64,000 nucleotides of DNA from Parvularcula lutaonensis (GTDB lineage Bacteria; Pseudomonadota; Alphaproteobacteria; Caulobacterales; Parvularculaceae): contig NZ_BMXU01000001.1 of assembly GCF_014651915.1 (NCBI RefSeq), positions 682,001-746,000 on the forward strand, written 5' to 3'. Every line of letters starts with the position of its first letter. The stretch's first letter is position 1. The notes under the pieces were generated by a model. That model had not been told where the DNA came from, did not search any database, and saw only the letters and a program-made list of their open reading frames with translations. The translations under genes were made by a program, and so were the position numbers. Shown here in pieces: positions 5,162-8,725 of the stretch.

Positions 5162-5264
5162 CAGAACCTAGAGCAGGGTTGGCCCCCGGCGTCAAAGCGG
5201 CGATAAGGACATCAGGGCAACCTGTCGCGGGCAGCGGCGGGTCAGGGAACAGGGGACTGGGACA

Positions 5265-5687
5265 ATGCTTCTCCGCCGCACAATCGCTTGCCTTTTCATG
5301 GGCTTGCTCCTCGCAAACTGCAGCGAGAACGTCTCGGAGCCACCGGGCATCCCCGAAGCGATGCAGCAGGACCTGCCCGAGGACATGAAATCGGAGCGCA
5401 CGCCGGTCGAGATCAAGACCGCGACATGCCTTCTGTGGCCTTCCAACTTTCGGGGTGACTGCAACTTCGAACCCCGCGGCCGGGGCTCTTTTTCCGTGAC
5501 TCTTCCCGAGGGCGAGGCTTTCTACGACGATGTCACGCAGCTCCTCGTGACCGTCTACATGGAGGGTCACGCAGACGTTCGCGCCATGAAGGCCGACGGC
5601 ACGTCGGAAATGGTGGGCGAGGCCAAACGGTCGGAAACCTATCCCGCATGCTGGATCGGCACCGGTTTCTCGGTTTGTGCCTATTGA
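5265..5687 (+). CDS. Small predicted lipoprotein, unknown function
   Basis: Encodes 140 residues beginning with a charged n-region (MLLRR), a hydrophobic stretch and a lipobox LLANC at Cys19, so export and lipidation are likely. The mature part is hydrophilic and has four further Cys residues (CLLWPSNFRGDC and near the C-terminus), which could form disulfides. I recognise no family. It lies 134 bases before another lipoprotein gene on the same strand. An ATG at 5265 preceded by GGGGACTGGG is the only start that includes the whole signal. Confidence 0.75.
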   Translation: MLLRRTIACLFMGLLLANCSENVSEPPGIPEAMQQDLPEDMKSERTPVEIKTATCLLWPSNFRGDCNFEPRGRGSFSVTLPEGEAFYDDVTQLLVTVYMEGHADVRAMKADGTSEMVGEAKRSETYPACWIGTGFSVCAY

Positions 5688-5820
5688 GACTGCATTCGAG
5701 CTAATCCCGCAATTCTGCGGTGATGACCAAGGACTATCGTCTCCCGCCAGCGGGGGTAGAACGCCCAGTACGCGCCGGGCAGGGCGTGGGCGGGGCAGAG
5801 CAGAACGCAGGGACATCACC

Positions 5821-7737
5821 ATGAACGCACTTCGAACCGTATCCGCTTTGGCACTCACTGCGGGACTCCTCGCCTGTTCGGGTGGTGGCGGCGACAGCGC
5901 AGGGCAGCAGCAGCCTAGCGCGGGCGGCGGGACCTCGACCCCGCCGGCGGCGTAGTCGGGCACACCGATCACGTCCGAGGGCGTCATCACCGGCTTTGGC
6001 AGTGTGTTCGTCAACGGCAAAAAGTTCGAAGTCCTGAACTCGACGGTGGTCCAGATCGAGGGCCAGAACGGTGTCGGCGGCGGACAGAGCCTCCTGCGCC
6101 TTGGCCAGAAGGTCCGCGTTGAAGCGCGCGCTCTCGCCAATTCGAACGAGGCGGACGTGATTGTCTTCGACGAAGACCTGCGCGGTCCGGCCGTTCGGAT
6201 CACGCCCGATGGAGACGATCCGTCGGTCGGCACGTTCAAGGTGATTGGCCAGACTGTCACCGTCGATGCCCTGACCATCATCGGAGAGGACTTCACGGAC
6301 CTGAACGGTGATGGAGCGGTGGATATCCGCGATTTGGACGGGCGGCTCGGGACCGCAGGGGCGCCCTTCATCGTGGAGGTCTCCGGCTCGGTCACCGAGA
6401 GCGGGTTTATCGCCTCACGGATCGACAAGATTGACCGGGCGGCAGGCGACCCGAACACCGATGGAGACGAGTATGAGGTGAAGGGCTTTGTCGACCAGGT
6501 GATCGGCAGTGGAACATCGATCGTCATCAACGGCACCGAGTTCCTGATCGACAATGCCACCGTTCTTGAAGACGGGCTGATCGCCGACGACACACTCTTG
6601 GGGGTCTTTGTCGAGGTGAAGGCGGACCAGCAGGCCGATGGCAGCTACATCGCCCGCGAGATCGAACTCGGCGACGACAACGCGAATGACGCTCCGCAGG
6701 AAAACGAGGAATTCGAGATCGAAGGTATCCTCATCCCCGTCGACACCAGCGTCACGCCGAACACCATCGTCATTGGTGGCAGGACGATCGAGGTCGACGA
6801 TGCAAGCGGCCTTGCGTCGCTCGTCGGCCAGAGGGTCGAAATCGGAGGCACGTTCGATGCGGCGGGCACGCTCGTCGTCAGCAAGACGGAAGTCGAGGTC
6901 GAGAACACGCTCGGCGTCTGGGATGAAGTTGCTTCGATCGACACCGCCGGCGGTACGTTCACGACCCGCCTTGGGATCGTGATCGAACCTACGGGGGAGA
7001 GCCGCCTGCTCGATCTTTCCGATCCGCAAGGCGGACCGCAGCGCACCGTGGATGCTTTTCTCAGCCGTCTCAGCGTCGGTGACGACATCCGCGCCAAAGG
7101 CTATCCTGATGCCTCAGGAGCCCCGGTGTGGACCCGGATCAGGGTCGAGCCCAAGGACCGGGACGGCTGCCGCGTCATGGGACCGCCCTCCGACCCGATT
7201 ACTGCAGGCGTCAGCTTCACGATCCTCGGTGTCACGGTGGAGACATCCAGCATGACAGCACCGGGCAGCTTCCTCGGCGCCGATGATACCGATCTCGGTG
7301 CCGATGCGTTCTACAACCAGATCGCATCCGCCACCGCGGTCAAGGCGAAGGCGTCGGGTGACGCAGCCTGCGCAACAGGGCGGATGACCCTCGCGGATGG
7401 CGATGAGGTCTCTCTCGAGGAGGATGACGGTGTCGCTGCGAATGGTGACGATTCCGGGACTGAGTCCGAGGACATCGGCGTGATCGGTTCGGTTTCCGCC
7501 ATCGATGCTGCGAACGGCTTCCTGACGGTTGCCGGCCAAGAGGTCTTCGTCGGACCGGCAACAATGATCGACAATGACATCGTTGCAGCGTTCAAGGGCA
7601 CATCGCCTGCGCAAGAGCAGGATACGGCCTTTGCCAACCTCTCGGCATCCCTCGACGCGGTGTTCACGGTCGGCGATGTCCTGGAGATCGAACTCGATAT
7701 CGAAGGCGCTGCGGTCGAGATCGAATACGCCAACTGA
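5821..7737 (+). pseudogene. DUF5666-domain lipoprotein interrupted by in-frame TAG
   Basis: ATG 5821, after an AGGGA ribosome site, opens a lipoprotein signal with lipobox LLAC at Cys19 and a Gly/Ser/Pro-rich linker. Codon 45 (5953-5955) is TAG. The same frame then continues without a break to TGA at 7737. It starts at once with a typical DUF5666 segment (GVITGFGSVFVNG), followed by several related beta-rich repeats (FDEDLRGPAV, DGDEYEVKGFV, NEEFEIEGIL and similar). Without the TAG the product would be 638 residues. DUF5666 proteins are secreted and of unknown function. Either the gene is inactivated, the base is an error, or the stop is read through. A GTG at 6004 could start the remainder, but the product would lack an export signal. 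Confidence 0.75.
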
Positions 7738-7798
7738 TCCGATCCTGAGGGGAACTGGCGGCGCAAGCCGTTCCCCGCGGCAACGCGATCAAACCCCT

Positions 7799-8725
7799 GT
7801 GCAAGCGCTTGTCCTGAAGCTCTGCTTGTTGTTCATCTTGCGTGTGCGAAAGAGCGAAGCGGTTCAGGAAGCCTTCCACGGCGATGCCGAGAAACTGGCC
7901 ATAGAGGGCGACCGTTCGGTCGTCGTCGCGCGCTATGGCGTGCCCGACGCGGGCAGGGTCCTGCTGTTCGATCCGGGTTCGTTTGGCATCTATGCCGACT
8001 TCCATCACATTGCCCAGCACCTCGCCCGCGAGGACTGGTACGTCATCGCCATGACCCGCGCCGGGATGTACCAAAGCGATCCGCTCCCTGAGGGTCAGGA
8101 CCCGGTTCCGAGGTTCCACGTGGCCGATATGGCACGGGTTCTCGATACGCTGGGCATCGACCGCAAGGTGATCCTCGCCGGACACTCGATGGCCGGGGTG
8201 CGGCTTCACATGGCGGGGCGCATCATGCCCGAACGTTTCCGCGGTCTTGCGCTTCTCGATGCGGTCTGCCCATCGCAAATGCGGGGGCTCGCATGGGCCG
8301 GCTGGGTTGCCTGGGCGCAGCTGATCGGCAGGGCAGGGGCCCGCTTTGCCCGCAGCCGCATGGGCGGGCTGATGGAGAGCGTGCATCCGAATCTTCTCAA
8401 GCTCGAAGGCCAACCGCGAAACGACAAGCTCGCTTCGGTCATGTCAGAGAAGCACCTGCGCTGTGCGGCCAGGGAGGTCGCGGTGACCGAACGCAAAGCC
8501 TTGGGCGAGCCCGTCGAGCCAGCCATCAAGCTCCCTGCGTTCTTCGCGACAGCGACACAGGTCAGTCAGGGTACATCCGAACTGCTGAGGGAATATGAGA
8601 AGGAAGGCACCTGGACCCGCCGTATCCATCTCAAGAATGACGGCCACATGTCGATGCTGACGCCTCCCTCTTCGCACCTCATCGCCGAGGGGATTGACGA
8701 GCTTTGGGAAGCGGGCGCGCGCTAG
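7799..8725 (+). CDS. Alpha/beta-fold hydrolase
   Basis: A roughly 308-residue alpha/beta hydrolase. The nucleophile elbow GHSMAG supplies the Ser, NDGHMSML near the C-terminus supplies the His, and FDPGS near the front probably forms the oxyanion region. A segment of about 50 residues after the elbow (AWAGWVAWAQL) looks like a lid. Substrate unknown. The start is uncertain: GTG 7799 gives a hydrophobic N-terminus that might be a membrane anchor, and a GTG near 7843 would give a soluble protein. Neither has a strong ribosome site. The frame extends upstream into the preceding gene, but that part is overlap. It ends six bases before rluA. Confidence 0.8.
   Translation: MQALVLKLCLLFILRVRKSEAVQEAFHGDAEKLAIEGDRSVVVARYGVPDAGRVLLFDPGSFGIYADFHHIAQHLAREDWYVIAMTRAGMYQSDPLPEGQDPVPRFHVADMARVLDTLGIDRKVILAGHSMAGVRLHMAGRIMPERFRGLALLDAVCPSQMRGLAWAGWVAWAQLIGRAGARFARSRMGGLMESVHPNLLKLEGQPRNDKLASVMSEKHLRCAAREVAVTERKALGEPVEPAIKLPAFFATATQVSQGTSELLREYEKEGTWTRRIHLKNDGHMSMLTPPSSHLIAEGIDELWEAGAR

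Follow-up and report, generated by a model that had tools for sequence, protein, structure and literature searches.

DUF5666 lipoproteins (Pfam PF18914), as found in Nitrospira and in four of the genomes compared here (G002, G003, G011 and G057), consist of a signal with a lipobox, a low-complexity linker and the DUF5666 domain. The gene described below has the same layout, but unlike the others it carries a stop codon in the linker, and it is the only one of the 19 copies examined that does so. Two further kinds of system bear comparison with it. In the incipient nonsense pseudogenes of bacteria, one premature stop interrupts a frame that is otherwise intact, in a gene of patchy occurrence; no difference from these was seen, loss of the product being in the present case a prediction from sequence. 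In amber recoding, be it by a UAG suppressor tRNA, through pyrrolysine or in codes that lack RF1, an in-frame UAG likewise lies within a conserved frame. Here, in contrast, RF1 is present, TAG terminates genes, a tRNA with the anticodon CUA was not found and the homologues are without the stop. A few checks, on homologues, terminator use, RF1, tRNAs and the spread of the gene, can thus sort a conserved frame that a single stop interrupts; at this locus, they leave either a base error or the recent loss of a gene that occurs patchily.

The DNA analysed, referred to below as the window, is a stretch of 64,000 nucleotides (G000:C1:682001-746000). It belongs to a 2.95 Mb draft genome in 10 contigs that is 99.98% complete and is represented by one assembly.

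Layout of the gene and its in-frame stop

Translation of positions 5821-7737 on the + strand places the start codon ATG, a lipobox-bearing signal peptide, a TAG and the remainder of a DUF5666 protein in a single frame. The features are as follows.

5821-5952, + strand: signal peptide, lipobox LLAC (Cys at codon 19) and low-complexity linker, 44 codons; from translation, with a layout common to 18/18 homologues
5953-5955, + strand: premature in-frame TAG inside the linker; from translation, with a linker stop absent in 18/18 homologues
5956-7737, + strand: remainder of the DUF5666 protein, 593 codons and TGA (7735-7737); PF18914 at E=2e-31 in 5 stretches, homologues of 41-54% identity in G003, G002, G011 and G057
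6004-6006, + strand: GTG, the first ATG, GTG or TTG in frame after the TAG and an unlikely restart; falls in the first conserved strand, no Shine-Dalgarno sequence being seen by eye

The 44 residues before the TAG read MNALRTVSALALTAGLLAC...PPAA (translation of 5821-5952), the signal peptide and lipobox being assigned by eye, and a Shine-Dalgarno-like AGGGA can be read directly 7 nt 5' of ATG 5821. When the whole frame was translated, no premature stop was encountered other than the TAG, which lies outside any homopolymer. That signal peptide, lipobox, amber codon and DUF5666 remainder share one frame with no other disruption had been claimed in an earlier, sequence-only reading, and both the translation and the 18 homologues bear this out; the long run of codons that it described after the TAG is also there, its figure of about 594 becoming 593 on counting.

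The Pfam DUF5666 model matches the part after the TAG with 108.5 bits, against a cut-off of 27. The codon model gives the 44 preceding codons -0.07 per codon, compared with 0.33 downstream, and alone they are not scored as coding, which is put down to their being a short, low-complexity stretch; they are assigned to the DUF5666 gene because the homologues share the layout. Searches with the DUF5666 protein gave a best PDB match at only E=0.2 and no NCBIfam model above the cut-off.

Homologues and the position of the stop

Homologues were found in five of the 60 other genomes of a wider set. Two, with 54% (G003) and 46% (G002) identity, are from the same genus as the window genome, one is from the same family (G011, 41%) and one from the same order (G057, 41%); the match in G022 is shorter and weak (E=3.8e-9). 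A search by family matched four of 61 other genomes, which are those of the wider set minus G057. Thirteen more distant relatives came from a named collection, comprising 12 records from Nitrospirae/Nitrospira and one gammaproteobacterial metagenome-assembled genome.

In all 18 homologues (5 genomic and 13 named), the ATG, the hydrophobic stretch, the lipobox cysteine, the linker and the first motif, G-x-[IV]-[TS]-x-F, follow one another in one unbroken frame, and none has a stop between signal and first motif. The linker stop is therefore private to the window sequence. A homologue beginning past the TAG with a signal of its own, which the sequence-only reading had named as evidence that would speak against it, was sought among the 18; each has its signal upstream and in frame. 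From the cysteine to the first motif, the homologues have linkers of about 21-35 residues (by eye) that look unalike, and the corresponding distance in the window gene is 34 positions, counting the stop. To the eye, the linker that holds the TAG appears unconstrained.

The homologue in G003 (L065:6514-8220, minus strand, G003:C2) stops approximately 100 residues short and is missing its C-terminal part. By eye, the DNA past its stop is likewise without the C-terminal part and runs into another gene.

Termination, tRNAs and recoding

The use of TAG as a terminator was counted in 384 kb, made up of the window and 16 stretches of 20 kb, by means of a simple codon-score gene finder. The 312 predicted genes end in TGA (186), TAG (81) or TAA (45), and TAG terminates 68 of the 258 genes above 150 aa; the gene finder is crude and these counts are approximate, the false calls being too few to alter the result for TAG. 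Among its errors, an antisense open reading frame at 198-629 was called instead of a recombinase-like one at 201-1145, and a hydrolase at about 7850-8725 was overlooked. A list of same-frame continuations beyond the other stops sampled is crowded with adjacent genes lying in one frame, and yields no base rate for split genes in this genome. RF1 (TIGR00019) is full length, with 517.9 bits. The base 3' of the TAG at 5953-5955 is T, the rarest in that position (11 of 76 TAG-terminated genes over 100 aa); in E. coli, a T after the stop favours termination.

A suppressor tRNA, which the sequence-only reading had proposed to look for elsewhere in the genome, did not emerge. None of the 40 tRNAs called by ARAGORN has a CUA anticodon, and the remaining one of the 41 Rfam tRNA hits in the genome, which ARAGORN does not call, has a GCA loop as read from the alignment. 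A pattern for a CUA tRNA gave one match, not called by ARAGORN, as against five for the reversed control. tRNA-Ala(TGC) and tRNA-Ile(GAT) are missing among the 41 hits; the draft may be short of some tRNAs, perhaps those lying in unassembled rRNA operons.

The hit not called by ARAGORN is a tRNA-like sequence of 59 nt at G000:C2:818430-818488 (L063:81-139, minus strand). It scores 29.4 bits with the Rfam tRNA model (cut-off 29), has hardly any D arm and a GCA (Cys-type) loop, and lies about 8 kb from a normal tRNA-Cys.

RNA folding gave z -0.35 for the region downstream of the TAG (5956-6040) and z -1.35 for that around it (5900-6040), the latter fold being equalled by 19 of 200 shuffles; a weak or unfamiliar element could escape such tests. 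No Rfam family matched at 5200-8200. The two folds and the Rfam scan held nothing notable that would speak for an RNA recoding element, and a change of genetic code or a suppressor tRNA is not supported, with TAG a routine terminator, RF1 intact and a CUA tRNA not found. Beyond the intact downstream frame, there is no support for readthrough.

Condition of the frame after the TAG

Private amino-acid changes in the window gene and in the G003 homologue number 60 and 62, respectively, with G002 as the outgroup, 52 and 54 with G011, and 49 and 56 with G057. Of the 115 columns that are constant in the four other homologues, 95 are kept in the window gene; taking out each of the other four in turn yields 95 of 114 to 131, and the window gene thus keeps conserved columns as the homologues do. 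The downstream part has a GC3 of 0.76, the mean of 226 genes above 200 aa being 0.77, and its codon score of 0.33 stands against a mean of 0.26 (sd 0.08). Neither the relative rates, the conserved columns, GC3 nor the codon score thus gives any sign of relaxed selection or decay after the TAG. Because the frame is without decay, the TAG, if real, is recent. Such a frame would be expected after a very recent change, and equally if the gene is intact and the TAG a sequencing error. That no second stop has arisen says little about age, since one would result from 117 of the 5337 single-base changes possible. Dating by decay was given up, as all four tests show none, and the age can be put only as 'recent'.

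Distribution and genomic setting

Within the genus, the DUF5666 gene was matched in two of nine other genomes, one of the nine being 89% complete and one having 6% contamination. The helicases most similar to the one neighbouring the window gene are in G009 (87%) and G003 (82%), and in both genomes the gene for a 140-aa lipoprotein adjoins that for the alpha/beta-hydrolase, with no DUF5666 gene between them. Eight helicase neighbourhoods of 13 kb (G007 being outside the set) contained no match to DUF5666, and the DUF5666 copies of G003 and G002 sit elsewhere in their genomes. This suggests a gain at the locus in the lineage of the window genome, or repeated loss. As regards a paralogue that could stand in, a PF18914 search of the genome itself matched this gene alone, twice. 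The DUF5666 lipoprotein gene is probably dispensable.

Interpretation of the stop

It is probable that a recent nonsense mutation broke an accessory DUF5666 lipoprotein gene, which would make the gene an incipient pseudogene. A single nonsense change would have fallen in the linker, between the lipid anchor and the repeated domains. Translation from ATG 5821 to TAG 5953 would then give a lipidated stub of ~26 residues after signal cleavage, and the 593 downstream codons would presumably not be translated in useful amounts, nor their product reach the membrane. What the sequences themselves show is a stop that the homologues are without, and no suppressor came to light in the searches. Production of the stub, loss of the full protein and tolerance of that loss are inferred, the last from the patchy spread of the gene. 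The sequence-only reading had proposed a recent change, an assembly error or tolerated readthrough; the first two stand, whereas readthrough has against it the use of TAG as a terminator, an intact RF1, and searches that found no suppressor tRNA, unusual fold or Rfam element. It should be noted that, in the one assembly, a recent nonsense mutation and a base error would look the same. Under the latter, which we regard as unlikely though deserving of weight, the living strain would have an intact gene for an ordinary DUF5666 lipoprotein. The TAG is the sole disruption in 1.9 kb, nothing downstream has decayed and the genome is a 10-contig draft, all of which would suit an assembly or base-call error; however, the site is not a homopolymer, and the gene is patchy in the genus, so that its loss is unsurprising. 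Single-base errors are, moreover, rare in good short-read assemblies, should the window genome be one.

The remaining explanations would have the downstream codons translated in the cell. Some full-length lipoprotein could be supplied if a near-cognate tRNA, or a suppressor that escaped the searches, allowed readthrough at a low level; in keeping with this, the linker looks unconstrained and the downstream frame is intact and free of decay. It is nevertheless improbable, with TAG a routine terminator, RF1 intact, no CUA tRNA found, ordinary RNA folds, no Rfam match in the surrounding 3 kb, a T following the codon and a TAG common to none of the 18 homologues. Were it true, the linker stop would set the dose of a surface lipoprotein. 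A stop acting as a dosage brake and not as a knockout, where near-cognate readthrough tolerated by the linker in the presence of an ordinary RF1 yields a little lipidated DUF5666 protein, is a very improbable arrangement. More doubtful still is a cytoplasmic DUF5666 protein made by restarting translation inside the gene, at GTG 6004 or some other codon. GTG 6004 is indeed the first common start codon past the TAG and opens 577 codons, but as codon 17 of the downstream part it falls within ITGFGSVFVNGKKFE, in the first conserved strand, and no Shine-Dalgarno sequence precedes it by eye, while the upstream signal is kept by every homologue. The product from GTG 6004 would have neither the signal nor the start of that strand; the sequence-only reading was right that it would not be exported.

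The adjoining hydrolase gene

In the stretch 7738-7900, 3' of the DUF5666 gene, the hydrolase gene has, by eye, no ATG to match the start of its homologues in G009 and G003. Its start would need to be a GTG or TTG slightly upstream, or ATG 7574 within the DUF5666 gene.
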